Part shown: positions 16,401 through 53,243 of the stretch, piece by piece
How positions within the stretch are numbered: position 1 is the first letter of the stretch
Layout: each line of letters begins with the position of its first letter
Source of the DNA: Aurantiochytrium sp. KH105
Lineage: Eukaryota; Sar; Bigyra; Thraustochytrida; Thraustochytriidae
DNA: 64,000 nt
Assembly (NCBI GenBank): GCA_003116975.1
Contig: BGKB01000071.1
Coordinates: 247,180 to 311,179, forward strand
Direction of reading: 5' to 3'
Made by a program: the position numbers and the translations under genes
Notes under the pieces: model-generated
What the model was told of the DNA's origin: nothing
What the model saw: only the letters and a program-made list of their open reading frames with translations
Databases searched by the model: none

Positions 16401-19400
16401 TACGCCTCGGCGGGCATCACGGCTTGCGAGGATGGCTCGTGGTTTGAGGTTTTCCACCAATTCGACTGTCGTGTGACTTTCAATCTTGGTCGCACCATTA
16501 TTAACTCCTTGTTCGATCTTCGCAAAATGTGGCGCTACGACATCGGTGCCGAAACGTACCTGTATTACAAGTACACGAGCGCATCGCTGCCGGAAAATTA
16601 TAGCGCTTATGACATGATGTTGAATGAGTGGTCAAGCATGGACGGCAAGCACCTGATCAACGCGAACTTTAGTCTCTTCGCTAGCGAGGTTGATGCGGTG
16701 AATGGAACAAATGCGTGGCAGTGGAGCAACTATGACGATGCAGTTGGATTCCCACGGGATGCAAGACCCATTGCGCTGCAGAGCAACTTTGACAGCACGA
16801 ACCAGACATGGTCCGCGTACGTGACAAGTTTCTACTATAAATGGGCCAAGGCACACTGCACCGTTTCGCAGCACAAGACTCCTGTCAAGGAGTTTTCCTT
16901 TTCACTTTGCATTCCTGAGAGCGAATCTGCCCTTGCGAGCGCGGTCTCGTCGACTTCGAGCGCAGAGACGTCGAGCGAGTCCGTGACAACTTATACGGTT
17001 TCCGGAACGATTCGAGACATTCAGACGGGCGGTGGCGCCGAGGCGCGCGTTCGACTGTACCGGGGTCGTGTTGCGGCCTGGGAAGGTGTGACGCCTCTTG
17101 AAAATGTGGCAGCAACATTTTTGACAACCTCAGTGGCGGCCGACGTTGGGAGCGATGGGCTTGCGGGATTCACCTCGTGCCTTTCGGCCATGGAAAATGA
17201 CACTGCAACAGCTTCTGACTCGACAGAGGACAGCGTCTACATACAAAGCAGTACCTTTCAGTTCGATGCACTGGCTGCAGGCACCTACACTGTGGTGATT
17301 TCATATGAAAGCGGACTCGTGGGCAGCACTGTTTTGGGGGCCGGCGCCTTTACCTCGCGTGTTGACACGTTTGAGGTTGTCGATGCTGACGTATCGCTTA
17401 CCTTTGACATTGCGCGTAGCCTTCCTTCGAATGCCATTCTCGTGGTCTTCGAGAGCAAGATGTTGGGACTTGATGCCGTCGTGGAGTTCTCCGCTGCGGC
17501 AAGCACGATCGAGGAAGATTCTGAAGTCACAACCTGTGTCGTGAGTGCTAAGTTGCTGGCAGATGGCGCGTGCAGCTGTGGCAGCGCCCACTTGGTGCGT
17601 GCCGACTCTGTTTTGCAAGACAATGGCAAAGCAACTACCGTCATTTACTTTTCCGAGCTGTATCAGACACAGTACAAGCTGTATCTCTCACGAACGGACC
17701 CGGTGGGGACTAGTGCGTACAAGAAGCACCGTGATGACGGACGCTGTGGTCCAACCTATCCTCTGTCCAGCGGCGAAGCGGCACGCTGTCCGCCGGTAGC
17801 GGTGACATGGGGAGATGGTATCAAGGCCCTTCGCCCATGCTGTCATATTCTGAGCGGACAGTGCGGCAGCGGGGACACTTTTTGCGGGACGCGGTGGTCG
17901 ATCGACTATCGCATGTTTCTCGACGACGCCTGGATGACTCAGTATCGCGACGATCTGCTTTGCAACCGTCCAGAACAGCTCTACTCTTCAGACGGCGCAG
18001 ACGACATTTTAGCAAAGTGCCCCGAGGACGCCCCTTGCTGCAGTCCTCAAGGCAAGTGCGGTTCGCTCTCGTATCACTGCGACTCTGCACGGTCAATTGA
18101 TTACCGTGAGTTTTACGAGGAAGCCCTCGCGGCCAATGAAACGTCGCAAGATGCTGTCGAGGAGTCCGAGACGGTAATTTCCGTGTACAGTGCGAGTGGA
18201 CTCGCAGAATCGTACACACTCCCAGACCCACTCGTCCAGCTCAACTACTTTGACGGTCACGAGTATACCGCGGCAGAGGCGACGGCTTCTTCGACGTACA
18301 TGCGAGCCTTTTGCATTGATGCCACGGCGACCTCACCGCAACTCTACGAGTATCCAGCGCCTCGTTACTTTGAGTTCAAGGGCCAAATGCTCGGCATGTC
18401 TTCAAGCTGTCCAGCTGAGTCGGACTGCAACTTTGCACGAGTCACGGGTATGCAAGCAGCGTTTGAACGAGAAGATGGTACATACGTTCCAGCGTTGAGC
18501 GGGATTTATCTTCGGAGGTACGAGGAGCAAGGCGGCTTTAAAGCGTACGTGGGCGCGTATGTGGATTATGATGTGACCTGTCGTGCTGCCGTCACGGACC
18601 CTTCAGATGGCGTTTCACGATGGTACATTTCTGTGTCGCCGGAGGACTGGGACCCAGCGTCTTGCATTGAGCTTTGTGAAGAAGATGATGACTGTCAAGT
18701 CGTGGCGACACGACAGTGGATCGACAGTACCACTCAAGAGTACAAGTACCGATGCTCTTTTCACAAGAACATTCACCTGTGCAATGGGTTGTACACTGTT
18801 AGCACGGCTTCGTCATCATCCACGTACATGGTTTATCGTCGCCGATCTTCGCTTGCTGCCTCTGGGGTCTGGTACTCACAGCTATCAAGCATGTTTAATG
18901 ATGCGGACGACCAGGTTCATCTCTATCGGGACGAGACGAGCAACACATGGTACATGGACAATGACCTTGTACCAGGAAATGGCCACTTTGCGCTCGCAGT
19001 ATCGAGCGAGGATAGTGAAATCCCGCCATCATCTCCTTGGCGTTATGTGACCTCGTTTGCAGAGAAATCGACGAGTGCGCACACAGGATCTGTCTCAGTG
19101 CTTGCATTCGAGGAGGATTGCCTCGTGGGTGGTAACTTTCCCACGCTGAACAGCACAGCCGAGAATGCCGGGTGCGAATGTTCGAGCGCATCATCGTCAT
19201 ATAACTGCTACGGCTTTACGTGCAGTACGATGCGTCTCCGTATTGAGGGCACAGACATTTGCCTCGAGGGTGACGCCAGCTTGAGCGCCTTGATGAGCAA
19301 CAAGTGTGAGTTGGGCGAGATTGGCCAGGCATTCCTATTTGACACTGCGTCTCAGCAGCTCGAGGTGCGCGCCACGAACGCAACGGATGGGACTACAGTG

Positions 19401-36008: not shown

Positions 36009-39000
36009 ATGGGGTGCAGCGCGTCAGTGCAGGTGCCTGACGGCCCAACATCGCTTTCGAAAGGCGGATCTCCGCTGACCTCCAAACAAGCCATGGCGCA
36101 GATTCGTAAGATCGGTAAAACTGCGCCGCGAAAGAAGCTCGAAGAGGCTGGTACGTACGAGATCAAGGTTGACGGGAAACTCGTGCCTTTGCCCTTTGCA
36201 TACGTGTCCCAGACAGGTTACTACCCCGATGAGCTCGACAAAGCGAACCAGGATTCTCTTGTGACGCGAGAGGATATCGGCGGGAGGAACAAGGAGCTCG
36301 CCTATTTTGGTGTCTTTGATGGCCACGGGAAAGCAGGAGACCTGTGCTCCAATTATGTACGAGCCGAGCTCTGGGAGAATCTCGAAAATGAGCCTGCTTT
36401 TGCCGAGGGCGACCTTTTCAAAGCCCTGGTGGATGCGCATGTTCGTACCAACGAGGAAATGCATGAGCAAGAATCAATGCAGGCCTTTTCGGATATGATG
36501 AGCGGGACAACTGCGATTTCCGCACTCTTTGAGGGCGACCGCGTGTTCATCGCAAATGTGGGAGATTCGCGCGCGATTGCCATTGTTGAGCATGATGATA
36601 AGCTGGTGTCCGTTCCATTGTCAATTGACCAGACGCCCTTTCGCAAGGATGAGCGCGAACGCGTCAAGCAGCAGGGTGCTCGTGTACTGACCATGGCGCA
36701 GATTGAAGGCTTTCAAGATCCAGACGAGGACGAATATGGCGATGAAGACGACAATGACGGCGATCCACCGCGGCTGTGGGTTCAGCAAGGCAATTACCCT
36801 GGCACGGCCTTTACGCGGTCTCTGGGTGACCGTGTGGCCGAAACAATTGGAGTTCACGCAGTTCCGGAGGTTCTTGAGCGACAGCTTACAACCTCGGATC
36901 AGTACATTCTGCTCGCTTCGGATGGTGTGTTTGAGTTCATTACTTCGCAAAGCGTTGTGGACATCTTTAGTCGTTTCGAGCACGATCTGCTCAACGCCGC
37001 ACGCGCGATTGTTGCCGAAGCCTACCGCCAATGGTTGCAGTTTGAGACACGTACAGATGACATCACCTGCATTATTATTGATGTGCGCAGACTGGGCCAG
37101 AACCAGGTCAAGCTGCAGGAGCTGCTCAAGCGCAAAGGAAGCTACGGTGTCGAATTTCTCGCACAAGAGATCAGATCGCAGCAAGTTCAGCATTCACCGG
37201 ACCAGGCGCCCGCACCAGAAGCCGAGAGCGTGGGCGCGGACCCCAGCGAGGCACATTTCGACCCCGCGAAGCTTGTTCATCTCGCGTCCTTTCGTTTGGA
37301 TCGGGCACGGTCTTCCCTCCACGTGGCCAGCAGTACCGGGGAGGCCACGCCTGCGACGAAGAGCGACAAGAAGGATGCCATGCAAGAGCGAGGGCCCGAG
37401 GCGTTCATGTCGATGGAGTTGCGGCCCGTCCGGCGAAAGGTGGCCAACAACGTTGGTGTCGTGCACTTTGACCCGGCAGAGCTTGAGGGGTACGAGCTCC
37501 CCGTGCACGACAAGACTGAGGGCGAACTCGAGGAACTCGAGGAAGCCTTACGCTCGAACTACATGTTTGCGCATCTGAGTGAGGCCCAGCGGCGTCGGGC
37601 AGCGAGCGCGATGCAAAAGGTCGAGGTGAGCACCGATGATGTGATCATCAAGCAATTTGACAAGGGTGACCAGTTCTACGTAGCAACGAGCGGGCGATAT
37701 GCAGTTGAAGTGGCGGTGAACAAGATGATGGAAGATTGTGCAGGCAAGATGATTCCCATTGAGGGCGAGTTTGAGGCGCCTCGCGAGATTATGGAGTACA
37801 ATTGCGAGGGTGGATTCGCTCAGAGCTTTGGTGAGCTGGCGCTCATGTACAATAAGCCTCGTGCGGCAACGATCACGGCACGGAGCGACGGTACATTGTG
37901 GGCATTGGAGCGCAAGGCCTTTCACTCTGTGCTCATGCGCGACTCGGCTCATCGCTTGGTCAAGGTGTTACGCAAGGTCCAGGCCTTTAAATCGCTCACG
38001 TACAATGAAGTTGCGCGTCTTGTGGACCTTCTCACAGAGTTGCGCTTCAAGAAGGGCGAGTACATTGTGAAGCAGGGTGATTTGGGCGACTCCTTTTACG
38101 TCATCAAGCAAGGTCGCGCCAAGGTCACGATAGACTCGGGAGACGGAGAGGAGAAGGAAGTAATGCGGCTCTCCGAGTACGAGTACTTTGGCGAACGTGC
38201 ACTTTTGAACAAGGCTCCTCGTGCTGCAAATGTTGTTGCCACGGAGGATGTGGTTTGTCTGATGATCCGCAAGGAGCTCTTTGACGAAGTGCTGGGTCGC
38301 CTTCAGAACGTTCTGGCCAATGATGCGCGAGAGCGTGAGGCCGCTGCCGAGCAATATCACAATGTGAGCTCCCTCCAGGACCTCAAGGTCTTTCCCGGAA
38401 GCTTCCCCATCCACGAAGGTACCGTCTTTCGCGCGGCTGTTCGAGTAACCGTTGGCGAGGATACGAGCAGGGTAAAGTTTGTCTCACTTCGACGCATCCT
38501 ACAGCCCACGGGCGAGGAAGCTGGCGATATGCCTGCGCTCATCGCGAACGAGCTGGATATTCTCGGCAAGGTGGCCAAACCAACCTTACTGGCTCGTTTC
38601 GACAACCCGGACAAGCACGACATCACCTACCAAGTGTTTCAGCAAGAGTTTGTTTCGGACCTTGCAGCGCTCGTGTCAACGCGGCCCCTGGATTCGGCAT
38701 CTCAGATGCTCAAATTTGCGGTACGAAGCATTGGCGCTGGTCTTGTGCAGCTGCAGCAGCACCGGGGTATTCTCAGCCGAGGCATTTCGCCTGAAGGAAT
38801 TCTACTCGACATCAACGGACAGCTCTGCATTGCGGACTTTCGCTATGCCAAGGTGACTGCGGGCTCGCGCACGTTTACGGCATGCGGAGTTCCGGAATAC
38901 ATGGCTCCCGAAGTCATTTTGGGAACTGGCCATGGCTTTGCTGCAGACTGGTGGTCCCTGGGCATCCTCATAATTGAGGCCTGCACTGGGAAGAGTCCCT

Positions 39001-39332
39001 TTGCGGATATGCGTGAGCCAGATATGTACGCTTCCATCACATCGCAAACGTTCATTCAAGACTTTCTCGCGACGAAGCTGGGCGACGTGCACGGTCCCTG
39101 CAGCAAGCTCATTCGAGGTCTCCTGTCGTTCAATGCTGACTCGCGCTCGCTCTTTGTCCATGAGGACGAGATGGACAATGTGCCCTTCCTTGCTCGCATC
39201 AAGCTGCGCGACTCGCCTCTTTCGCAGGCCGCGAAGGAGATCGCTTCTAATCTCATGAGGGCCGAGGCCAACAGCAGCGGCAGTTCCTTGCTTGTGTCGC
39301 CCATCCACAACAGCGCTGAGGGGCGCTTTTAG
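36009..39332 (+). CDS. PP2C phosphatase - two cyclic-nucleotide-binding domains - kinase-like fusion protein
   Basis: 1,107 residues starting MGCSAS, a plausible N-myristoylation/palmitoylation site. Residues about 65-385 are a PP2C phosphatase with intact DGHG (about 103), GDSRA and SLGD motifs and an acidic metal site DGVFEF. Two cNMP domains follow (about 517-640 and 655-777), with FGELALMYNKPRAATI and FGERALLNKAPRAANV, i.e. full phosphate-binding cassettes. Residues about 800-1064 are AGC/PKG-kinase-like (CGVPEYMAPEVILG, ADWWSLGILI). The catalytic loop is SRGISPEGILLD (Gly about 925 where HRD has Asp), DFG is DFR (943-945), and the VAIK Lys position appears to be Arg (about 828). Land plants have the same domain order (Arabidopsis At2g20050 type). 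Expected role: cGMP/cAMP-responsive membrane-linked phosphatase, with the kinase domain possibly inactive. Confidence 0.93.
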   Translation: MGCSASVQVPDGPTSLSKGGSPLTSKQAMAQIRKIGKTAPRKKLEEAGTYEIKVDGKLVPLPFAYVSQTGYYPDELDKANQDSLVTREDIGGRNKELAYFGVFDGHGKAGDLCSNYVRAELWENLENEPAFAEGDLFKALVDAHVRTNEEMHEQESMQAFSDMMSGTTAISALFEGDRVFIANVGDSRAIAIVEHDDKLVSVPLSIDQTPFRKDERERVKQQGARVLTMAQIEGFQDPDEDEYGDEDDNDGDPPRLWVQQGNYPGTAFTRSLGDRVAETIGVHAVPEVLERQLTTSDQYILLASDGVFEFITSQSVVDIFSRFEHDLLNAARAIVAEAYRQWLQFETRTDDITCIIIDVRRLGQNQVKLQELLKRKGSYGVEFLAQEIRSQQVQHSPDQAPAPEAESVGADPSEAHFDPAKLVHLASFRLDRARSSLHVASSTGEATPATKSDKKDAMQERGPEAFMSMELRPVRRKVANNVGVVHFDPAELEGYELPVHDKTEGELEELEEALRSNYMFAHLSEAQRRRAASAMQKVEVSTDDVIIKQFDKGDQFYVATSGRYAVEVAVNKMMEDCAGKMIPIEGEFEAPREIMEYNCEGGFAQSFGELALMYNKPRAATITARSDGTLWALERKAFHSVLMRDSAHRLVKVLRKVQAFKSLTYNEVARLVDLLTELRFKKGEYIVKQGDLGDSFYVIKQGRAKVTIDSGDGEEKEVMRLSEYEYFGERALLNKAPRAANVVATEDVVCLMIRKELFDEVLGRLQNVLANDAREREAAAEQYHNVSSLQDLKVFPGSFPIHEGTVFRAAVRVTVGEDTSRVKFVSLRRILQPTGEEAGDMPALIANELDILGKVAKPTLLARFDNPDKHDITYQVFQQEFVSDLAALVSTRPLDSASQMLKFAVRSIGAGLVQLQQHRGILSRGISPEGILLDINGQLCIADFRYAKVTAGSRTFTACGVPEYMAPEVILGTGHGFAADWWSLGILIIEACTGKSPFADMREPDMYASITSQTFIQDFLATKLGDVHGPCSKLIRGLLSFNADSRSLFVHEDEMDNVPFLARIKLRDSPLSQAAKEIASNLMRAEANSSGSSLLVSPIHNSAEGRF

Positions 39333-40516: not shown

Positions 40517-40813
40517 GGGAGGAACAAAAACCGGAGGCGCGGCAGTAGCGCAGTTGCGGCGGTGCGTGCAAGTGGGTTATGCGCGCGCGGGAACACGGGT
40601 ATGGCGCGGCGGCAAGGGCTGCATGCGGTGGCAGCGCGCGACCAGTGGCCAGCCGGCGGGATCAGGCGATGACATGTGAATACGAGACTAGCAGGACCAG
40701 GAAAAGAAAAGAAGGGTGGTGGAAGGAGGCAAAGAAAGGGCAGGAAAGGCGTGAAATGCAAGATGCATGAAATGAATGTGAGGGAGGAGCGAATGATCGA
40801 TCGATCCATCGAA

Positions 40814-40922
40814 CGAAGGAAGGAGAAAAGAAAGAAGGAAACAAAGGAGAAAAAGAAAGAAAGAAAGAAAGAAAGAAGGAGAGAAAGAAAGGAGAGAGAA
40901 AGAAAGAAAGAAAGAAAGAAAG
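40814..40922 (+). repeat. Long (GAAA)n purine tract
   Basis: Over 100 bp almost free of pyrimidines on the + strand. It lies 600 bp upstream of the CCCH start and in the same open frame, giving a false Lys/Arg/Glu-rich extension that begins only at a GTG. Confidence 0.85.
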
Positions 40923-41527
40923 CAAATTCAAATCGCAGCGGCGTCTCGCGCGCCCAGCGACCTCGAGCCGGACGCGAGCGCAGGCAGGCAGGCAGGCGGC
41001 GGGCAGGCGGGCAGGCGCGCGCGCGCGCAGGGCACTCCCTCCTCGGCGGGCGGCCCGGGCCGGCGTGGTCTTCCTCCTCTCTTTCTCTCTTTCCTTCCCC
41101 CGCTCGCGGGCGCGTGGCGGCGGCCTGGTCCATTCATTCATTCGTTCGTGCCTGGCGCCCGCGCATCCCCCCCCCCCCGCTACCTCCTCACCCCGCGCGG
41201 CTCGGGGCTGGCCCGCGCGGGCCTCGCCTCGCCTCGCCCCGCCCCGCGAGCGGCGCACGCAGCGCCCGCCAGCCGGCCAGCCGGGCGACGCGGGGCGCGG
41301 GCGCAGCGGCGAGGCGCGGCTGGGCAGCGAGGTCCGAGCGAGCCCGCGTAGGGGTCCCTAGGCGGCGGCTAGGCGCACCGGCCCGCCCTCTTTCTCGTTG
41401 GCCTGCGCGCCTCGCCCTGCTTGGCTCTCTCCGCCTTGCTCGTCGGCCTGTCTCGGACTCCGTGGCGGCCTCGGACGCCGCGGCGGGCGCGGAGGGCGGC
41501 TCGGCGAGGCGCGCGGAGGGCGGCGGC

Positions 41528-42532
41528 ATGGCGAGCTTCGTGCTGGAGCGGCGGCCCGGGATGGAGCAGCGCGCGGCGCTGCGGCGCGGCGATGATGGCG
41601 GCCATGGCGATGATGAGGATGCGGATGGCGCGCGGCCGCGCGGCGAGGCCGGCAGACCGCAGGCGGCGGAGGCGGCGTGCGCGGCGCGGCGGCAGGCGGC
41701 GGCGGCGGAGCCGGCGGCGGAGGCAGAGGCGGCGGCGGCGGCCGGCGCGCCCTCCTCGCCGCGGTCGCTGTCCAGGGCGTCCTCGGCGGCGTCGACGGCG
41801 TCCCCATCGGGCATGATGCACAAAAAGACGCACGCCGGGTCCGCGGACAGCGTGCGCGACGGGGCGGGCACGGGCGCGTCCAGCACGACCAGCAGCACGA
41901 GCGCGTCCTCGATCGAGCCCAACGGGCCCGGCGCCGAGGCCTCGCTCGCGCTCGCCGAGGGCCCCGCGGCCACCTCGCCCGACGGCAGCGCCGTCAACAG
42001 GGGGCCTCGAGGCCTTGGCGGTGCCAGCGTCGGCTCTGCCCCCGGCTCCGGTGGTGGCAACAACGCGGACTCGAGCGTGAATGACGCCGCGCCTGCGAAT
42101 GCGAATGCGGCGAACGGCGGCCCGGCCGTACCGCCCGGCCCTGGCGGCCCCGGCGGCAAGCAGGAACACACCAAGGAAGACCTTTACAAGACGGAGCTCT
42201 GCCGCAAGTGGCAGCAGACGGGCTCGTGCCGCTATGGAGACCGTTGCCAGTTCGCGCATGGGCTTTCGGAGCTTAGAGCACTAGTTCGCCATCCGCTGTA
42301 CAAAACCTCAATGTGCAAAAGCTTCGAGGCCACGGGAGAGTGCCGCTATGGCAACCGCTGTCGCTTCATCCACGATGAGGACGAAGACTATCTGAACAGC
42401 CTGCCACGTGGCGTCGCCACGCTCAACATCACGCCGGCGGATGATCCTTCGTTTCGGCGAATTCCTTCTGCGCCTGCAAACCTCGACACCTACAAGCAGG
42501 GCCAAGCTCCTCTTGCTGCGCACCTTCTTGCC

Positions 42533-42589
<57 letters not shown>

Positions 42590-44328
42590 CAACAGCAGCG
42601 CCAACAAGGCCATGTTTCACGGATTTCCCCCACACCAATGCACCAGCAATCGCACCATTCTGTTTCCCAGCAACAGCAGCAACAGCAGCATTCGCCCACA
42701 CTGCAGCACCCGCAAGGTCATTCTCAGCGGGATTTGCAACACCAGCATCTGCAGCATCACCAACACGCTTCCCAGGCTCATCGCCAGGCCGTCCCTCGCG
42801 TGCAGAGTGCTCGTGTCCCTCTTCACCAGCATCCGTCACTGCTGGCTGAACAGCAACATGCAAACTACCCATACGCAGGTCGCAGCGAGCGCCGCGTCCA
42901 CTACGCCGATGGGCCTCACCCCGGAGCAGGTCACCAGAGCCAAGGCTCCTTGTCTGCAGGTCGCGGCCTTCGATCGAACTTTGAGTCAATGCCCATGGGC
43001 TACGACGGCATTTCCATCGAGGACGTTGCCTCTGGAACTGGACCATATGAGCTCGGCGTCATTGGCGAGGGACTCCCTTCGTCGAGGTCCATGATGAACA
43101 TGAGCATGCGTCACGCCGACTCATCTGCGAATCTTGGCGGAAACAGCGTCGGTCTCGGGCTGCCTTCAGACTTTCACGACTTTCAGCAGTCGATGCAACG
43201 GTCTGCCTCGCACGCGGACCTCGTACGCCAGCAGGTCTCCCAGTACCACAGCAGCAACGCCGAGGACGGCATGGGTAGCCTCTTCGCGTCCGGATTCGCG
43301 CCTCACGATGCGAGCCAGATCCCCGTCGCCGGTTCTGGATCTGGTTCCGGCTCGGGATCTGGCTCGAACTCTGGCTATGGAATGCATCATTCGGGATACC
43401 ATGGTGGGGCAGAGGACAATGGTTCCGGCCCGCCGTCGCCAACCTCACCCCCGCGGGCCCGCGGCACGGGATCGGATGCTGAACTCCGTGCGTCGGCGTC
43501 TGCGGTGGCCCTTTCGACGCTCGAATCACCCGAGTCAAAGCCTCTTTCAATGCATGCAGAGGCTCCTTCGTCTCGCGTCTTGTCCACTGCTGAGCGTATG
43601 AGCGCGCTGCACTTGCCCCCCAACGCCGATGGCTCGGGAGCACACATGGGCTCTGGCATGAGCCGTAGCGCTTCACAGCCTGCTTTCAAGCACATGGCAA
43701 ATGGCTTTACCTCTGGCTATGGCGTGCCCATGCAACCGCGAATGGACTACGCTGCCAGCAATTACTCGCCTCCGTTTGCGCAGCAGCACATTTCCCACCC
43801 GCACCCACGGACGCCGTCGCCAGAAATGTCTTCTGCGTCGCCTACAGGTTTTGTCGATCGGACGCACTCTCCGAACGCTTATGGCCGTGCCCACGCCAGC
43901 GGGTTGGCGATGCATGATGACAGCTATGGTCGAGCTCCGCCCCGTTCTATGTCTATGCAATACCTCGCCTCGCAGCAGCAACCGCAGCATCAGCATCAGC
44001 AACAACAACTTCAGTATCAGGGTGCCATGCACTCTTCTTCGTCTTCTTCTCAGCAAGGATATCAGCACCACAATACGCCCTTGCACTCCAACAATAGCAT
44101 GAGCGCACTTTCGTCTCAGCTTGGTGGCCTTGGGCTCGGATCGCAGGCATCAAATTCTTATTATGGCCGTGCGCAAGAGTCTTCGCACCATCACCATCAA
44201 TCGCAACAACAAGAACAGCAACACCAGGACTTTGATCCTATTCGCAAGGTTGCAAGCTTCAATTCCACCTTTCAGCGCAATCCCTTTTCTGCTTCTGCGC
44301 AGGAACTCCAAATGCACAGCCAGCAATC

Positions 44329-44360
<32 letters not shown>

Positions 44361-44464
44361 GAGTTCAAGCGCCCCGGAGTGACGGCTTTGGCTTCTTTCC
44401 AAGTGTGAATAGTGACATGGATCGTCTCGGCCAAGACTACGGCGATGGCGGTCCTGCCTTTTGA
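41528..44464 (+). CDS. TTP/ZFP36-type tandem CCCH zinc-finger RNA-binding protein with polyglutamine tracts
   Basis: 978 residues from the ATG at 41528 (MASFVLERR); the frame extends upstream only through purine repeats. Two zinc fingers of exact C-x8-C-x5-C-x3-H spacing lie at about residues 220-285: [22 protein letters not shown] and, 18 residues later, [22 protein letters not shown], each preceded by a YKT lead-in. This is the TTP-family arrangement, which binds AU-rich elements in mRNA 3' UTRs and promotes decay. The remainder is low complexity: Ala/Gly-rich N-terminus, glutamine runs at 42533-42598 (22 Gln) and 44330-44359, plus Gly-Ser repeats. Such tails commonly recruit deadenylases or condense. 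A polyadenylation-like aataaa lies at 44678-44683. Confidence 0.92.
42533..42598 (+). repeat. CAG/CAA repeat encoding 22 glutamines
   Basis: In-frame CAG/CAA codons just after the zinc fingers. The CAG core may vary in length between strains. Confidence 0.9.
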
Positions 44465-45108
44465 TTCAGGCATCTGTCTTTCTCGCATAATTTATCAGAT
44501 TCCATATTTTCTTCTATCTACTCTCAATCCCTTGGGGCAATTCCATGAAATCGAACATCATTCTTTCCTGAGTAAAGGATGAATGGGCGGGTCTACGCTC
44601 TAAGCTAATTTGCATTACGATTTTGGCATTGCTATTTTTGTGCAAAAGCAACGAGGATTTCTCCTCTGATCTTCTCTAATAAAGTAGGCTTTCCATCTAC
44701 ACGCAATAGGCCCAGTGGTCTTCCAGTCCCTCCTCCTTTTTGAGGCACTATGTAAGCGGATGCCACGCATGGCGGTAGCAAGAGCAACTGGCACTAGCAA
44801 GAAGCTGTCAATCATTTTCGTCATCCTTTTTTGGTTGGAGAGTTCTTCATCCCTGCTCTCTTGATCTTCATGAGGAGCGCATTTAGAAAAAATAAAAAAA
44901 CAAAGATTTCAAAGAGGCAATGCGCGCGTGAGCGGGAAAACGGATCAAGCGGGCTCCGTTTCGCGAGAGTCGCTTGAGGAACGGTTCGCACATCCTCGCG
45001 CACAACACGCAAGTTATTCACATACTCACGCGCACCCGCGCGCTGGCCCGCCCGCACGCGCCGAAGCCGAAGCCGAAGCTGAAGCCGAAGCAAGATTGCG
45101 GCGCCGCG
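44465..45108. other. Intergenic region between CCCH gene and ATG12
   Basis: About 640 bp. An aataaa at 44678-44683 could end the CCCH transcript. The last 180 bp lead into ATG12, with a CCGAAG repeat at 45061-45090. No gene is seen. Confidence 0.55.
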
Positions 45109-45372
45109 ATGGAGGACGGCGCTGTCAAGGTGAACCTGGTGCCGGCGAATGCGCCCGTCTTGCGCGAGCGCGTGCTGACATTCAAGGCGAACGCGCGTGT
45201 CTACGACCTGCATCGCATGCTCCGCGAGCGACTCAAGCTGGAAACCCTTGTGCTCATCGTCGAAACGTGTTTCGCGCCTACTCTGGACCAGGAGCTCGGT
45301 GATCTCGCCAAAAACTTTGGCCGCAACGGGACCCTGCACATTACGTATGGCCCGCAGGCCGTCTTCGGATGA
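45109..45372 (+). CDS. ATG12: Ubiquitin-like autophagy protein ATG12
   Basis: 87 residues from the first ATG; the open frame reaches further upstream only to a TTG. The protein starts with VKVNLVPANAPVL and has the ATG12 core IVETCFAPTLDQELGDL, then FGRNGTLHITYGPQAVFG. The last residue is the Gly needed for conjugation, so no processing is required, as in other ATG12 proteins. ATG12 is activated by ATG7, passed by ATG10, and joined to ATG5; the conjugate with ATG16 promotes ATG8 lipidation on the phagophore. It lacks the long disordered N-terminus of animal ATG12 and is close to plant size. It converges with the Aquarius-like gene. Confidence 0.9.
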   Translation: MEDGAVKVNLVPANAPVLRERVLTFKANARVYDLHRMLRERLKLETLVLIVETCFAPTLDQELGDLAKNFGRNGTLHITYGPQAVFG

Positions 45373-45393
45373 AGAGTCTATAAATGCAAGCCA

Positions 45394-45432
<39 letters not shown>

Positions 45433-45551
45433 AAGTGAAAGAACAAACCCAACAACCCAAGTCGAAACCCAAGAATCAAATCAGCAGAGCAAAGCAACGC
45501 AAAGCAACGGAAAGCAAACAAAAAAGAGGCAGGTTTGAGATGGCCAATCGT
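45373..45551. other. Short convergent intergenic region
   Basis: It contains a (GA)16 run at 45397-45428 and an A-rich stretch, and presumably both 3' ends. Confidence 0.6.
45397..45428 (+). repeat. (GA)n dinucleotide repeat
   Basis: A perfect GA run in the 3' flank of ATG12. Confidence 0.95.
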
Positions 45552-48500
45552 TTATGCCACCTTCGGCTTCGTCGCCGGTGGCGGTGGCGGAGGGAGCAAC
45601 TTGGGTGACGGCATAAAGAGCGAATGCGGCCTATTCCAAAGCATGAGCGCAACGAGCGAGCCAAGATGGCCTAGACCGTCAACGACAAAGTCTTCAGACG
45701 CAGGGACCTTGGCATCCGCAGAATCTTCCACTTTTCCATCCGCAGCAACCATCTTTTGCCGCTTTGCTGCGGGTACAGATGCTTCGTCGAGGTTGGTAAT
45801 GGAATTGGACGGGGCCCTGCCTCTGGGATCTACAGCAGCCCTTTTGAAGAAATTGTCAAATCGCAAACGAAGTTTACCATCCGGCGCAGCGCGGATGAGT
45901 TGTCCAAAGATGAGGTGATTCCTGAAAACCTTGGCATTGCCAACGACGTACAGACCCTTGCGCGCTGCAGAGGCGGCAAAAATGCTGCGGCGTGGGTCGC
46001 CCATGAGATCATCCTGCAGCGTCGAGGTTCGTACGAGCGACATGAGGACAAAGCTCACCGTCTCACCAACGTGCTCCTCGAACGAGAGAATGGCCCGCGG
46101 GAAAGGTAACGGCGGGTTCGTGGCGCGCGCGCGCGAGTGTAGAACATCAATAATAAGCAACTTTTGCGCTTGGTACGGTGTGAGTATGACAATTTCCTTG
46201 GGCGGGTATCCCAGCGCCAGCATGTAGTGAAAGAGAGCGACGACCCACTCGGCCTCTTCGAGGTTTTGTACCTCTCCAGGGTGCGCAGTAACACGTTCCC
46301 GACCCTTGACGTCGATAAATTGCGCGCGAAGAGCAAAGCCTGGGTTTCTCTCCGTTGCTCCCGCGGCGCCGTCGCCATCAAGGAGCTTGTCGAGCGGGAC
46401 GAGTGCCGGCGCAAAGTCGGCGAGACCAAAGCGCTCGTCAAGCGTTGCATTGAGCGTCTTGGGCATCGCGGGACGCTCGTAGCGAACCCCGAGGCGGCAA
46501 AGCTTTTCAAAGAGAGAAGTCGTGGAGGAGCGCGGACGAGGCATCTCGCCCGTCCGGTCGCCGGCGACAATCATGCGTGACAGCCGTTGGCGGTCTAGGC
46601 CTGCAAACATGAGCATCGCATCGCGCTCCAAAAGCCGTCCTGCGTAAAGAAAAATGATACGATCCATTCGAAGGCGCTTGCAGGGACCGTCCGTGTGAAT
46701 GTACTGAAGCATGTCCTCGACAGCGGCAACAACAATTCGAGAATGGTCATGCAGAACGAAGTCCATTCGTTTGTTGAAGTCCCAAATGAGCTCCAGAAGA
46801 CGATACGAGTTCAGTTCTTCAAACATGGCCCGAATCATGTACACTTCCCGCTTGTTGCGATTCTTTCGGTCATCGCGGGTACCAAAATAGAACGCAAAGG
46901 GGAACGGAGGAACCTCCTCGCTTGCCTCGTACGCTTTAAGCTCGGGTTGCACGTAGAGGCGGTAAAAGTGGAGCGCCGTCTCGCAGCTAAAGTGGCTGGC
47001 ACCTGCGACGCCGAGGCCTGTGGCAATCTCCTCAACCTCGGCGAGCAGCTCGAGGCGTCTCTGAAGACAGGCTGCGATACGGCCCGAAATGTCAGGTCGA
47101 CGCAGACGCGTAAAAGGATGCGCAGTCTCCTTGGCAAGGTACTGCACAAGCACGACGGCGTGCACTTCGTCCGGGACAACAATAAGAGTCTTGTCCGGAT
47201 TTGGTCCTACGAGGTCTTCGACAATATCGCCAACAAAGGCATCACCACTGTAGTGCATCAGACGCAAACGGTCATCGGTGGCGCGCTGCAATGCCTTTCC
47301 GTGGCCCAAGAGAAAGTGTGCAAAGGCATCAGGAAGAAGCTTTTGCTCCGATGAGTCCATGAGCTGTTTGATGAGCGCGAGCCCGACGCGCCGCGGCACA
47401 TCGTTGGCCCACTTGCGACGCACTAATACGTATTGCTGCTGCTGAGGAGCGTTCTCATTGTAAATGGGTTGCTTGTCATTACAGATCCAGTGCAGCGACA
47501 CGACGCCGCCGGCAAGGTCGACGCTGCGCACTTGGGCAGGATAAATGGCCGTCACACGGCAGCGATTTTTGGTTTTGGGGTCGAGTTCAACGGCACAAAG
47601 AACTACACTGAGCTGCGACACTGGCAAGCTTGCCCATTCGGCGACAATGGGCCTTGGTGTGTCGACAAAGCTGCACTTGACAGAGGATCGCGTCAGCAAC
47701 GAGCATGGCATGGCCATGCGGGCCCAACCGCCAAAAGAGATTTTGGTCGGGCTGCTTGCGTCTTCGCGGACTGCGAGGAGCTCGAGCGCGCGACGAAGGT
47801 CGTATGCCAGCGCGAAGCGAGCCTCTTCCATCATGTGCACGAGGTTTTCCTCAATCATGGCCTCTTCTGAAATGTGCTGCAGACGACAGGCGAGTGCCTC
47901 ACGCACAAGCGTCGCGCGCGCGCGACCTTCGTTTTCGAGCTTGAGGAGATCGTCCTCGAAGGCGACGTTACTTCCGCCTGGAAGCAAAAACCACGCCTTG
48001 GCGTCACCCTTGTCCTTGGTACATTTGCCAAACGGCTTCACGGGCCGGTGGGCTACCTGGAGCACCTTGGCCAGAAACGCCTTAGATTGCGGCGAGATTA
48101 GTTCTTCTGGCTTGCAGCCATGCAGCGACGGAACACGGCGCGTCGAGAGGCCTAAATAGTCACAGAGCGCCGCGAGCTGGTTCGCATTGAGTGATTTCGC
48201 AAGCGTGCCCTCCTCGTCAATGGCCACTTGAGCCTTTGACACGGGGAGATAGGCAAGGTTTGCGTGGCTTTCGCTAAAGTGCCGGTCGAGGACGCGCTGG
48301 AGAAGGCGCACGCGGGCGGTGCGAAATCGCCGAACCTCCTCGGAGCGCTTGGTTGCGCACACGAGAGCTTGGTCGAGCTTTTCCAACAAAACGTGAGTGC
48401 TGTGATCATCCGCGCTTACCTGCAGCTCGAGTCGCGCCACGAGACTCGCGTCTTCTACCAGAAGCGCGAGAAATCTACGGAGCATGGGAGACATGAGGCA

Positions 48501-49304
48501 GTTGGTGATGAACTTGAGGGCCTCCTTTCGAGCGCGCAGGGACACGCCAATGAGCGCGTGAGCAAAGACGGAACGCCAAAACCCGTGGATGTACTCCTTT
48601 TCGGAGTCATCGATGGACTTGGAGTTGAGCGTCTTCCATTGTTGGCGAAGGGCGGAACCTTGCTCGGAAAGGTGACGCGCGAGGCGCTCTGCGTCCACGA
48701 GGTTCCAGAGTTCGTGCGACGAGAGACGCAGCAGGGAGCTGCGAACAGATTGCAAGTCCATGCGCCCAAAGAATAGAGAAAACATGCCGAGGTAGGAGGT
48801 CGACACATTTCGCGTTTCGCTCGCGCGGGGATCGAGTTGCGTGAACTGCCGGACGACCCGCTGCACGTAATCGGGGAAGACGGCGTGTTGGCTCATGCCT
48901 TGCACGAGAAGGGCCCTTTTACCCGAGGTAGCGTACCAAAGCAAGGCTACGCTAACATGGATAATGTCAGCGTGGCATCCGTCAACATCTTTAGAAATGA
49001 TGGGCCACAACTGCATCAAAAGAGCCTCCTCGCGGTCCAGCTTGGCGAGCACCTTGCAGTTCTTGGCGTTACCCAGATCGATTCGCAACCACATGTCGGC
49101 AATGGGGACGTCCTCCTCCTCCTCCTCCTTCGCCTCCATGGTCTTTCCATTCTTCTCTGAGGCCTCCTCGGCGCTGGCCTGCGTCTTGTGGCCGGGCTCG
49201 GCGGCGTCGTGGTCAGTCTCCATTGCCGCTCTCGCGGCGGCCGTGGCTGAACCCGCAGACGCGGCGCTCGCGCGGCGACGCTTACGAGCAGGCTCGCCCG
49301 CCAT
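45552..49304 (-). CDS. Aquarius (AQR/IBP160)-like protein with degenerate SF1 helicase domain
   Basis: 1,250 residues from the ATG at 49302-49304. The N-terminus has a basic KRRR nuclear-type signal. Family identity rests on several Aquarius-specific blocks: FGGWARMAMP (about residue 524), PDAFAHFLLGHG, LVGPNPDKTLIVVPDEVHA (about 698), RRLELLAEVEEIATGLGV and CETALHFYRLYVQPE, then EAEWVVALFHYMLALGYP, ILTPYQAQK and FVLMSLVRT. In the canonical protein, VGPPGTGKT is followed by about 20 residues before TLIVTH; here VGPN joins directly to PDKTLIVV, so the Walker A motif is gone. The DEAA-like box, the DRFQGQQ motif (here SFEEHVGET) and SRAR (here SAARKG) are also lost. Canonical Aquarius is a spliceosomal intron-binding helicase. 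This copy probably has a structural role or is a diverged paralogue. Confidence 0.85.
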   Translation of the reverse strand: MAGEPARKRRRASAASAGSATAAARAAMETDHDAAEPGHKTQASAEEASEKNGKTMEAKEEEEEDVPIADMWLRIDLGNAKNCKVLAKLDREEALLMQLWPIISKDVDGCHADIIHVSVALLWYATSGKRALLVQGMSQHAVFPDYVQRVVRQFTQLDPRASETRNVSTSYLGMFSLFFGRMDLQSVRSSLLRLSSHELWNLVDAERLARHLSEQGSALRQQWKTLNSKSIDDSEKEYIHGFWRSVFAHALIGVSLRARKEALKFITNCLMSPMLRRFLALLVEDASLVARLELQVSADDHSTHVLLEKLDQALVCATKRSEEVRRFRTARVRLLQRVLDRHFSESHANLAYLPVSKAQVAIDEEGTLAKSLNANQLAALCDYLGLSTRRVPSLHGCKPEELISPQSKAFLAKVLQVAHRPVKPFGKCTKDKGDAKAWFLLPGGSNVAFEDDLLKLENEGRARATLVREALACRLQHISEEAMIEENLVHMMEEARFALAYDLRRALELLAVREDASSPTKISFGGWARMAMPCSLLTRSSVKCSFVDTPRPIVAEWASLPVSQLSVVLCAVELDPKTKNRCRVTAIYPAQVRSVDLAGGVVSLHWICNDKQPIYNENAPQQQQYVLVRRKWANDVPRRVGLALIKQLMDSSEQKLLPDAFAHFLLGHGKALQRATDDRLRLMHYSGDAFVGDIVEDLVGPNPDKTLIVVPDEVHAVVLVQYLAKETAHPFTRLRRPDISGRIAACLQRRLELLAEVEEIATGLGVAGASHFSCETALHFYRLYVQPELKAYEASEEVPPFPFAFYFGTRDDRKNRNKREVYMIRAMFEELNSYRLLELIWDFNKRMDFVLHDHSRIVVAAVEDMLQYIHTDGPCKRLRMDRIIFLYAGRLLERDAMLMFAGLDRQRLSRMIVAGDRTGEMPRPRSSTTSLFEKLCRLGVRYERPAMPKTLNATLDERFGLADFAPALVPLDKLLDGDGAAGATERNPGFALRAQFIDVKGRERVTAHPGEVQNLEEAEWVVALFHYMLALGYPPKEIVILTPYQAQKLLIIDVLHSRARATNPPLPFPRAILSFEEHVGETVSFVLMSLVRTSTLQDDLMGDPRRSIFAASAARKGLYVVGNAKVFRNHLIFGQLIRAAPDGKLRLRFDNFFKRAAVDPRGRAPSNSITNLDEASVPAAKRQKMVAADGKVEDSADAKVPASEDFVVDGLGHLGSLVALMLWNRPHSLFMPSPKLLPPPPPPATKPKVA

Positions 49305-51074
49305 CCTTCGTCAGCTGCGTTTCTCCGCTGTCCTCCTCAACAAGCACGCGCCGCGCGCGCTGCTCGAGGTCGCCAAGGTCGTCGACGCCGAAGATGATAT
49401 GATGATACGCGTGGAAAAAGACGCGGCGCGCCGCGCGCGGAGGCAAAAGAAACACAGACAGACGCAGGCGCGACGCGATGCGGAGACAGGCGCGGCGCGC
49501 GCGATCGCGCGCGAGAGAGAGCGCGGGCTCGCGCGGGCGGCGCGGGCGGCCCCGGTGGCGCGGGTCTCCCGTAGCGCCGGCCGGCTGGCTGGCTGGCTGG
49601 CGAGGTGCCAGTGGCTGATGCGCTTTTCGATTTGGTTTTGAATTTGAATTCGGTTTTGAACTTGAGCAGAGAGAGCAGAGTTTGAATTTGAAAGCCAAAG
49701 CGCAAAACCACGAACGAGAGGCAGCCGCGCCGCCGCGTCCCGCGGACCGGCGGCCGCAGACGCCGAGCGCGGCGTCGCCCTGGCCGCTGCTCCGCGCGAG
49801 GCAGGGCGCCCACGCGGCCGCGGAGGAGCTGGGCGAAAGAAACGGAGTCAGGGCGCAAGCGCGGCCCAAAGTTGATTTTCGACGGCGGCGACTTCACGGC
49901 CGCGGACCCGACCCACCCATCCACCCTGCGCGCGCGCTTGGACGTCTAGGGCGGCACCGCGCGCGGAGAAGACGGTGGAGGGGGAAGCAGGGAGGGTGCG
50001 CGTGGACGACGGGAAATTGGGGCTGCTCAAAAGAGAATCAGTGCTTGCTTGGTTTGCATGAATTGCTTGAACTGCCCAAGTTTAAAAACGCAGACGTTCA
50101 TGAGAGGATGAATTGATCTCGCTTTGCAAATGGTGAGATCCGAGTTGGACCAGCTGCAGCTTCGGGTCGTAGTTGCAGTTTGCAGTTGACGGCGCTCTTT
50201 TCTACTTTTTTATCTTGAAGACATTCTAGGCCTCCATTTGAAGACTTGCTGGCTGCTGCACTCCCTTTGCATCGCTGCAAGAAAGGTGTTCGTGCTTCTT
50301 TCTCTTTTTTTCATTGTAAATCCACACAGTGGCTTGCTCTCTCTCGGGAATCCGAACTCTCAAGCACTTGCTTCTTGTCGCGATGCGTGTCAGATTTATC
50401 AGAACAATCGTTTGCCGTACTGTGATAGGCCTAGGATTCTTTCCGTCAGATTCAGACTTGTGCTTGTCGCGAAACTTGATTGCAAAATTGCAGTCGACCT
50501 TCTGTTTCTCGCTCAAGATTTGATGTGAAGAAACACTGGTGTTGCCCTCCTTCATACTAGTGTTTCAGAATACTATCTTGCTCGCAGTGCGGCTCCAAAT
50601 TTGCTGTTAATAAGAAGCTCTGGTATACATCCCATGGTTTCAAAATGCGATCTTGCATGCAGTGCAGAACAAGACTCGATGTCATTTAGGAAAGAGTGCA
50701 TAAATGCCGGATCGACCAGTCGTGGATGTATTGGACGAGAGCATGCAAGAAGACTCTTGTGGAGAACCGGTGACAAGGCTAGAGCAAAGCATGATACCTC
50801 GCGATCTTTGCTCTCGTCTTCAAGTCTGGTCTTGTCTCGACTTGCCGAGCCTTACTACTACTACATCATTGGCAATGAACGCTGTTTTGCTCTCTCTACT
50901 TTTTTGCATTCCCCTTTTACAGTATCTTCGCGAGGGCTGGTTGACGACAAGGTGCGGCCCCGAGCGAGGGCGAGACGCACGAGCGCAGAAGCGTCGCGGG
51001 CAAGCCCGTAGTCGTGAAGCTCGGGTCAGCTCGCGCCCTCCGCGAGCGAAAAGACTTTGCTGCGGCAGAGCGAG
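49305..51074. other. Divergent intergenic region (Aquarius-like / PH-kinase)
   Basis: About 1.8 kb. The left half is extremely GC-rich, the right half AT-richer. It has a perfect ggcctagg palindrome at 50428-50435 and a related ctaggcc near 50226. A 144-codon frame at 49682-50116 lacks any recognisable motif, and a 96-codon frame at 50238 begins with TTG; neither is called. Confidence 0.55.
50428..50435. promoter_or_regulatory. Palindrome ggcctagg (possible regulatory site)
   Basis: Perfect copy about 640 bp upstream of the PH-kinase start. Function is unknown. Confidence 0.25.
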
Positions 51075-53243
51075 ATGGACCAGAATGACGAGGCGACCAC
51101 GCCGCGGAGGACAACGACCACGACGAGCACCACGACAGAGACAGCCACGATCGAGGAGGGCTCGCTGTCCGGGATCTGGGGCGCCGTTGAGCTAGGCGAT
51201 GTGCTCTTCGAGGGTAAAGTCTTGAAGCAGAGTGAAATCCTCGGGCGCTGGAACGAGCGCTACGTGCAAATCGTGCGCATCCGGCAGGGTGTCCTCGTGT
51301 GTCTGTACTGGACGAGCGAGGAAGCACGCGAGCAGCATGCGCACGCTCCCCGCGGTCTGCTGGACGCCTCAAAATCAATGGTGAGCACCTCGCCCGAGTC
51401 ACTGACGATTGAGGTGCGTCATTTTAGTGACCTTTTGCGCGAGTCAGACTGCTTTGGGCCTCGGCGCGACATTGTCGCGAATTTGCGCGTTGACTCAACC
51501 GAGGTCCTAGAAAAATTAGCTGGCGCTCTTCAAGGCATCGGCGGACCCTCTGGCGATGGCACCGATGGAGCTGCGGCCCTGCAATTTGGCAACATGGTAA
51601 CGGCGTACTCGCGGGAACGCGCCTTATCAGCTTCGGGAAAAGAAAAGAAGAGCCAGGGTGCCGACAAGAACAAGAACCGACTCGACGCAGACTTTGCTCT
51701 CTTGGGAGAACTTGGTCGTGGCGCGTTTTCAATTGTGTACCGTGCCAAGAGGCGCAAGAGCGCTCCTGCAAAGAATGAGAATGGCCACAAAGAAGACCAT
51801 GACGAGCTGGCCATTAAAGTCGCGCTGCTCACGAAATTGTCCGTCCGGGAGCGTAAGACGCAGCTTCGGTACCTGAACAGCGAGGTCTCCATCATGCGCA
51901 AGGTACGCGAACAGCTGCCAACAAACGAGAATGTGGTTCACCTGCTCGAAAGCTTCGCGGAGCCACGGCCGAGTTATCGCGTCTGCATGGTTCTCGAGCT
52001 GTGCAACGGTGGCGAGCTCTTCGACCGCATCGTGGAACGGCGGTCCTTTTCGGAGCGAGACGCAAAGGATGTCATTCGTAGCCTGGCGCGTGCTTTGAAC
52101 GAGCTGCATGCCATCGGCATCGTGCACCGTGATCTCAAGCCGGAGAATCTGATTTATGCGACTTCGGCTCCCGATTCTGTGCTTAAGATCACTGACTTTG
52201 GCCTCGCGCTGGACATGGAGTACCCCGAGCGCGATGTGTACAAGTCTCATGTTGTAGGAACAAGCGGCTACTTTGCCCCCGAAGTTCTCTCTTTGCGCTA
52301 CAGCCCGGCATGCGACGTGTGGTCGCTTGGTGTGGTGTTATACATTCTGCTTTGTGGATACCCTCCATTTGTGGGGCGGACACGAGTCGAGGTGCAAAAG
52401 GAGATTCGCGAAGGAAGATACGAGTTTCACATGCCGGAATGGAAGAACATTTCTCTCTCGTCGCGTGACCTTATCACGCGCATGCTGCAAGTGAACCCGA
52501 AGCGCAGGATACGCATGGCTCAGGTGCTTGAGCATCCTTGGGCCACAGAACGGTCATCTTCAGATGAGAAGCCCATTCCGCTTGCCAAGCACAAGCAGTT
52601 TAACAACCGTCGCAAGCTCAAGGCTGCTGCGTATGCTGTCATGTGGGGTGCGCGACTGCGCAACAAGCGCAAGGAAACCTTGACGGCTCTTGCTAAGCGT
52701 ATGAAGCCCGACGGTTTTACAGCGCAGGATCTCGAACTCATCCGCTCTACCTTTGACGAACATACCAAGGAGCGCGGGGGTGTTATTGAAGATGCGCCCC
52801 AGCTGGAAAGCATCATGCAAGTCTTGGGTTTTCAGAACGTGCCGGCGGACCGCATTTTCAATTTATTTGATGACAATGGCGATGGTCACGTGGACCAGGC
52901 AGAACTTCTTTCGGGGCTGGCTGCCTTGCAAGGTCCTGGGGAGGATTCGCTCAAGTTTTGCTTTGACGTCTACGACAGGGATGGGTCGGGCGAGATCGAC
53001 AAGGATGAGCTCATGAGCGTGTTATCGATGGCCATTACCAACACCTCAATCGACACGGACAAATTCGTAGGTGACCTTTCCGAGGCCTTTGATCAGGTTG
53101 ACACCGATCGCAACGGGGCTATTTCCTTTGAGGAGTTCAAGTCCGCTTGCCAAGTGAAGCCGTACCTTGTCGAATGTCTCCTCTCGCGCAGGCTTTCTGG
53201 TGCAGTCAAAGTTCCTTCGTCTTCGTCGTTGTCGTTGCCATGA
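51075..53243 (+). CDS. Calcium-dependent protein kinase with N-terminal PH domain (PH-kinase-EF-hand)
   Basis: 722 residues from the ATG at 51075; an open frame six codons longer starts at TTG. Residues about 35-175 look like a PH domain (FEGKVLKQSEILGRWNERYV start). The kinase runs from about 207 (GELGRGAFSIVYRA) through the ATP Lys in LAIKVAL (about 246), HRDLKPENL (about 350), DFGLAL (about 374) and GTSGYFAPE, all intact and CaMK-like. Four EF hands follow: a degenerate one near 560, then DDNGDGHVDQAE (about 598), DRDGSGEIDKDE (about 634) and DTDRNGAISFEE (about 675). Calcium binding should relieve autoinhibition, while the PH domain should recruit the kinase to phosphoinositide membranes. 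Classic plant and apicomplexan CDPKs usually have acylation instead of an N-terminal PH domain. Confidence 0.93.
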   Translation: MDQNDEATTPRRTTTTTSTTTETATIEEGSLSGIWGAVELGDVLFEGKVLKQSEILGRWNERYVQIVRIRQGVLVCLYWTSEEAREQHAHAPRGLLDASKSMVSTSPESLTIEVRHFSDLLRESDCFGPRRDIVANLRVDSTEVLEKLAGALQGIGGPSGDGTDGAAALQFGNMVTAYSRERALSASGKEKKSQGADKNKNRLDADFALLGELGRGAFSIVYRAKRRKSAPAKNENGHKEDHDELAIKVALLTKLSVRERKTQLRYLNSEVSIMRKVREQLPTNENVVHLLESFAEPRPSYRVCMVLELCNGGELFDRIVERRSFSERDAKDVIRSLARALNELHAIGIVHRDLKPENLIYATSAPDSVLKITDFGLALDMEYPERDVYKSHVVGTSGYFAPEVLSLRYSPACDVWSLGVVLYILLCGYPPFVGRTRVEVQKEIREGRYEFHMPEWKNISLSSRDLITRMLQVNPKRRIRMAQVLEHPWATERSSSDEKPIPLAKHKQFNNRRKLKAAAYAVMWGARLRNKRKETLTALAKRMKPDGFTAQDLELIRSTFDEHTKERGGVIEDAPQLESIMQVLGFQNVPADRIFNLFDDNGDGHVDQAELLSGLAALQGPGEDSLKFCFDVYDRDGSGEIDKDELMSVLSMAITNTSIDTDKFVGDLSEAFDQVDTDRNGAISFEEFKSACQVKPYLVECLLSRRLSGAVKVPSSSSLSLP

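Follow-up and report, generated by a model that had tools for sequence, protein, structure and literature searches.

The 64,000-nucleotide window analysed here, from Aurantiochytrium sp. KH105 (contig BGKB01000071.1, positions 247,180 to 311,179), contains at 45552..49304 (-) a gene for a 1250-aa homologue of Aquarius (AQR), the superfamily 1 (SF1) helicase of the intron-binding complex. The gene consists of one exon with a single uninterrupted open reading frame (ORF) and is recognised by its PDB matches and its AAA_12 domain. Judged from its sequence, it is probably the organism's own Aquarius, which appears to have lost the ATPase/helicase centre and to have been kept as a scaffold, i.e., as a pseudo-helicase. 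All features of the gene listed below lie on the same (-) strand.

A phmmer search of the PDB returned 15 matches, the top six of which (E-values 3.7e-32 to 4.9e-21) are AQR chains or their fungal counterparts: AQR from three species (human as two constructs), chain Y of 9l5r, which carries the name 'Pre-mRNA-splicing factor' only, and Cwf11 of S. pombe. UPF1 and others rank below these, and the same six chains are found on top when the core alone is used as query; an 81-aa core fragment matched one unrelated PDB chain (E 0.5). The PDB tables are without species, and 8ro0 and 8xi2 are presumably the AQR proteins of C. elegans and Chlamydomonas, respectively. The AAA_12-type RecA2 domain (Pfam) scores 50.9 bits at a cut-off of 27. 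In a ten-row tree that includes four further SF1 helicases from this genome, the protein groups with the AQR rows with a support of 100/100, also without the Cwf11 row, with the caveat that its own row is a very long branch that triggered a tool warning. The six best PDB matches and the tree place the gene in the Aquarius family by descent, as the original prediction, made from the sequence alone, had proposed. The family-specific blocks named there are all present, namely FGGWARMAMP (aa 524-533, 47706..47735; FSGWARMAL in the C. elegans chain), CETALHFY (aa 774-781), LALGYP (aa 1029-1034) and ILTPYQAQ (aa 1040-1047). The alignment delimits a kept stretch common to AQR chains, from SGRIAACLQRR to FPFAFYF (aa 740-807, 46884..47087), and a best kept RecA2 block, PGEVQNLEEAEW...LALGYP...ILTPYQAQ (aa 1009-1047, 46164..46280).

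Four canonical AQR chains (8ro0, human, 8xi2 and 9l5r) served as reference for the invariant columns. Compared with canonical AQR, the window protein lacks the P-loop and has lost motifs Ia, II, IV and V, while motifs III and VI are damaged. The sole GK[ST] in the ORF, GKT at aa 53, lies beside an acidic low-complexity stretch and is not a P-loop, and neither G-x4-GK[ST] nor GxGK[ST] occurs in the six frames of 44500-50300, which confirms that the Walker A motif is missing. The motif II column reads FLYAGR (46635..46652) in the phmmer and ten-row alignments, or LERDAM in the six-row alignment, and the acidic pair is absent. The predicted loss of a DEAA box holds for the acidic pair but not for the wording of the motif, as canonical AQR has EEAA in 4/4 aligned chains. 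At the place of motif III, GDRTGEMP (46539..46562) keeps the GD and the last P. PKTLN replaces QGRAR at the motif IV-like place (46449..46463), and SFEEHVGETVS replaces TVDRFQGQQND at the place of motif V (46053..46085), in agreement with the predicted loss of DRFQGQQ. Motif VI is represented by AASAARKG in place of AMSRARLG (45954..45977), so that the column reads SAAR and lacks the arginines of SRAR or TRA[RK]; SRAR is indeed absent from this column, but the string as such occurs at aa 1057.

The start of RecA1 is collapsed. From the conserved F690 to G741 of the GR anchor (47082..47237), the protein has 51 residues versus 94 in human AQR (F802 to G896), a shortfall of 43 residues rather than the loss of about 20 initially assumed. 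Possible registers across this region were compared by profile scoring against the four canonical P-loop regions with 300 shuffles. The preferred register, GPNPDKTLIVVP on the pre-P-loop strand GMQPGLTMVVGP, scores 26.5, and the alternatives KTLIV on RTLIV (18.5) and LVGP on VVGP (18.2) score lower; a score of 26.5 was reached by 13 of the 300 shuffles, which makes the support for this register weak. A P-loop that decayed in place (VPDEVHAV), with the deletion after it, is thus a preference and not a proof. The direct junction of VGPN to PDKTLIVV described earlier corresponds to one of two registers, the better-scoring one replacing the P-loop in place, and the P-loop is missing under either.

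In the ten-row alignment, the window protein keeps 11/44 invariant motif columns versus 68/168 other invariant columns. The opposite pattern (p 1.4e-4 to 1e-6) is seen in four SF1 control proteins that are encoded in this genome and possess an intact P-loop, with 26-30 of the 44 motif columns kept and 46-50 of the 168 others. In the six-row alignment, the values are 12/44 and 74/168 for the window protein and 14/44 and 74/168 for Cwf11.

A second copy of the gene on another contig (C25) encodes 1254 aa from its ATG and carries the same lesion. Over the entire gene, the two copies differ by 65 synonymous and 19 nonsynonymous differences and by four indel codons, with a synonymous divergence (dS) of 0.076, a nonsynonymous divergence (dN) of 0.0067 and a dN/dS of 0.089. 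Across the 531 codons in and around the core (aa 598-1128), 28 codons differ synonymously and 2 nonsynonymously. The Aquarius homologue is therefore under strong purifying selection and represents a constrained gene, not a relic. Most genes encountered in the assembly are paired on different contigs, and the Aquarius pair is 7.6% apart at synonymous sites, which resembles the situation in a phased diploid that is heterozygous, or in a hybrid.

The core of C. elegans AQR (two joined pieces) was also used as query against the 76-Mb assembly, with E-values up to 10. The Aquarius pair (118 bits) heads the 30 matches, followed by the two members of a UPF1-like pair, at 85 and 84 bits, and then by weaker SF1 helicases. 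Over the core region, the identity of canonical AQR cores to the first alignment row is 56-61%, and an intact AQR would therefore be expected to score far above 118 bits. Nine gene pairs in the genome contain AAA_12, and eight of them also match AAA_11, the P-loop-bearing domain, with the Aquarius pair as the sole exception. ORFs were inspected in one copy for seven of these pairs and in both copies for two, and the labels UPF1, senataxin-like and IGHMBP2 were assigned by this inspection. An intact AQR was not found among the 18 AAA_12, 26 AAA_11 and 30 canonical-AQR-query matches of the assembly, in a search that proceeds exon by exon and scores only the best candidates of a possibly incomplete assembly. 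There is thus no support for the suggestion that the gene is a paralogue accompanying an intact AQR.

Several spliceosomal partners are encoded in the genome. They include a well conserved SYF1 of 859 aa, which scores 667 bits against its human counterpart, as well as ISY1 (185 bits), SKIP (200 bits) and U2 snRNA (100 and 98 bits). A protein combining a cyclophilin domain with an RNA recognition motif (RRM), encoded by a pair on contigs C73 and C18, is taken as PPIL4-like, and its gene is apparently retained despite the loss of the Aquarius motor. Among 39 cyclophilin and at least 146 RRM matches, further cyclophilins were labelled from sequence inspection as PPIL1, PPIL3, CWC27, PPWD1, PPIL2 and PPIH, and one other RRM-cyclophilin pair, spaced by 7.4-7.6 kb, lies inside 12 kb. 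A letter pattern for RNP1, meant to reveal RRMs close to cyclophilins, failed to pick up the RRM of the PPIL4-like protein and was discarded. As regards the few introns proposed for the lineage, many genes encountered are single open frames; some cyclophilin matches are split or contain stops, and these probably hold introns.

The non-catalytic nature of the protein, proposed in the original prediction, is well supported by the absence of the catalytic motifs in both gene copies. A scaffold fits the lost motifs, the low dN/dS and the presence of SYF1 and ISY1, although the role itself is one we infer. Intron binding is questionable, since the RNA contacts of such helicases are usually made by motifs Ia, IV and V, and these are lost as well. 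The protein would still dock in the spliceosome beside SYF1 and ISY1, through its N-terminal repeats and those AQR surfaces that are preserved. There it would most likely act as an adaptor that keeps the complex with SYF1 and ISY1 in place against the U2 region, but does not use ATP to pull on the intron. In human extracts, the step from B-AQR to B* needs the AQR ATPase, and with the K829A variant of human AQR the spliceosome stalls between PRP2 action and branching, according to passages of PMC10208982. K829 has no counterpart in the window protein. Here, a putative PRP2 could accomplish the step from B-AQR to B* on its own, as happens in budding yeast, or the release could be spontaneous.

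A number of observations weigh against a spliceosomal scaffold. The difference between motif and other columns is not significant for the window protein alone (Fisher p 0.079); only the contrast between this protein and the SF1 controls is. AlphaFold, run on aa 630-1140 without relatives, gave a mean predicted local distance difference test (pLDDT) score of 34, which leaves the RecA folds unsupported. The match to Aquarius_N_1st (PF16399; aa 80-413, 48066..49067) reaches 24.8 bits in the window copy and 25.9 in the second copy, narrowly below the cut-off of 26.6, and aa 60-560 alone matched no PDB chain at E-values up to 10; the genome-wide Aquarius_N_1st search gave zero matches and missed even the window gene, so its silence is meaningless. 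The intron-binding complex itself may be reduced. A PPIE-type RRM-cyclophilin was not seen, since among the RRM matches (at least 146) only that of the PPIL4-like pair lies within 7 kb of a cyclophilin, and PPIE may be absent from the genome. CCDC16 (PF23406) had no match in the genome and none in the controls either, which makes this result uninformative. In addition, the best identity to any AQR row is 31%, a divergence that would allow for a changed role, and the Aquarius core reaches no more than 101 bits against human AQR, whereas SYF1 is well conserved. The low identity beside a well conserved SYF1, the missing PPIE-type gene and the loss of the RNA-contact motifs would all suit a protein that has left the spliceosome for a new role, e.g., in RNA or DNA metabolism, in a cell that splices without Aquarius, as budding yeast does. 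Such a departure is unlikely, as the non-motif columns are kept about as in the spliceosomal Cwf11 (74/168 each in the six-row alignment, 68 for the window protein versus 74 for Cwf11 in the ten-row one) and SYF1, ISY1, SKIP and the PPIL4-like protein are all present.

A spliceosomal Aquarius without a motor could also descend, together with Cwf11, from one ancient inactive AQR paralogue, in which case the motor would have been lost only once. Window protein and Cwf11 do join in the ten-row tree (89/90), but treekit flags this join as long branches meeting, and when either of them is dropped, the remaining one takes no distinctive position among the AQR rows. Moreover, the lesions differ, Cwf11 having GPTRCGKH at nearly full length where the window protein is 43 residues short, and the window protein scores 99-115 bits to other AQR chains versus 79 bits to Cwf11. 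A single ancient loss is therefore quite improbable, and two separate motor losses, in the window lineage and in that of Cwf11, are favoured because both the lesions and the lineages differ. That ATP is still bound by an unrecognised replacement loop and hydrolysed slowly is very improbable: motif III retains its GD, and there are still glutamates close to motifs II and V, but the Walker lysine and the acidic pair of motif II are absent, motif VI is reduced to SAAR and RecA1 is shortened. Least probable of all is a pseudogene or an assembly artefact, for which nothing speaks beyond the missing motifs. Against it stand a 3.75-kb open frame, the occurrence on two contigs with 7.6% synonymous divergence and the dN/dS value, and a sequencing artefact is contradicted by the same lesion in the diverged copy. 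Pseudogene and sequencing error were accordingly discarded as explanations.

The Aquarius gene adjoins an ATG12-like ubiquitin-fold autophagy protein (44974-45372 (+); PF04110, 46 bits). Other genes in the window encode a CCCH zinc-finger protein with two fingers and long glutamine runs (40676-44464 (+)), a 1107-aa frame that joins a PP2C phosphatase, a cyclic-nucleotide-binding domain in two stretches and a protein kinase in a fusion of the phosphatase-PKG type (36009-39332 (+)), and a single frame in which a kinase is combined with EF-hands, as is typical of calcium-dependent protein kinases (51057-53243 (+)). Pfam recognises only PT disordered repeats in a 4065-aa open frame at 7464-19661 (+). 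Elsewhere in the assembly, on contigs C72 and C155, a PfaA-type polyunsaturated fatty acid (PUFA) synthase frame matches model positions 6-1035 at 930 bits, short of the cut-off of 1010, and a divergent frame of 2081 or 2152 aa, which matches model positions 189-467, lies about 5 kb away on the opposite strand. The PfaA model also matches 11/14 prokaryote controls below the cut-off, so that weight is given solely to the high score and the arrangement. PUFA synthase genes of thraustochytrids are arranged in this way, which suggests that the genome belongs to a labyrinthulomycete, probably a thraustochytrid.

A partial precedent for the window protein is Cwf11, whose residues were read from the letters of PDB chain 3jb9 X by purpose-shaped queries. 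It is of similar length (1284 aa), is a component of solved spliceosomes and is likewise degenerate in its motifs, with GPTRCGKH at the P-loop, VMNSQN at motif II, GNQYLTS at III, QYNVR at IV, TVEKLPSDKRVN at V and AFSACSYG at VI. In contrast to the window protein, however, it keeps a G....GK remnant and nearly the full length of RecA1. These motifs conflict with a passage of PMC4830896 that speaks of an 'Aquarius(Cwf11) ATPase'. A cwf11 deletion strain has been grown as a known splicing mutant, as stated in part of PMC4210515, and since this strain grows, cwf11 is not essential in S. pombe. It is conceivable, at somewhat less than an even chance, that the Aquarius motor is expendable and its body is not, and that at least two lineages have dropped the ATP-driven second activation step and kept the protein. 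A loss of the motor in both the window lineage and that of Cwf11 would speak against a universal AQR ATPase step. If true, this would constitute a natural experiment in which the scaffold role of Aquarius is separated from its motor role, and the role of Aquarius beyond ATP hydrolysis would become testable by comparison. The motor would then have been dropped even where PPIL4 and SKIP, the 'brake' parts said to co-evolve with Aquarius, remain. PPIL4-like and SKIP genes beside a motor-less Aquarius under strong selection are a poor fit to a simple co-evolution of Aquarius and this brake, and the same applies to Cwf11 as read from its PDB letters.

A motor-less Aquarius was not described in those parts of the open-licence literature that were searched. 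With the AQR chains of human (4pj3 and 5mqf), 8ro0 and 8xi2, the window protein shares the blocks GR..., L..R..LL, FPF..YF, QNL.EAE...LGYP and GLY; all of these chains, however, have GPPGTGKT, EEAA, QGRAR, an FQG or YQG motif V and SRAR, none of which is intact here. The C-terminal helicase cassette of BRR2 provides a precedent for a catalytically inactive helicase unit retained in the spliceosome, as described in a section of PMC8894380, although BRR2 belongs to the Ski2-like family and its inactive cassette is joined to an active one. The spliceosomes of S. cerevisiae and trypanosomes also function without an AQR ATPase, as passages of PMC10208982 and PMC8682746 indicate. These organisms lack the AQR protein, whereas in the genome studied here an apparently motor-less AQR is kept alongside SKIP and a PPIL4-like protein.

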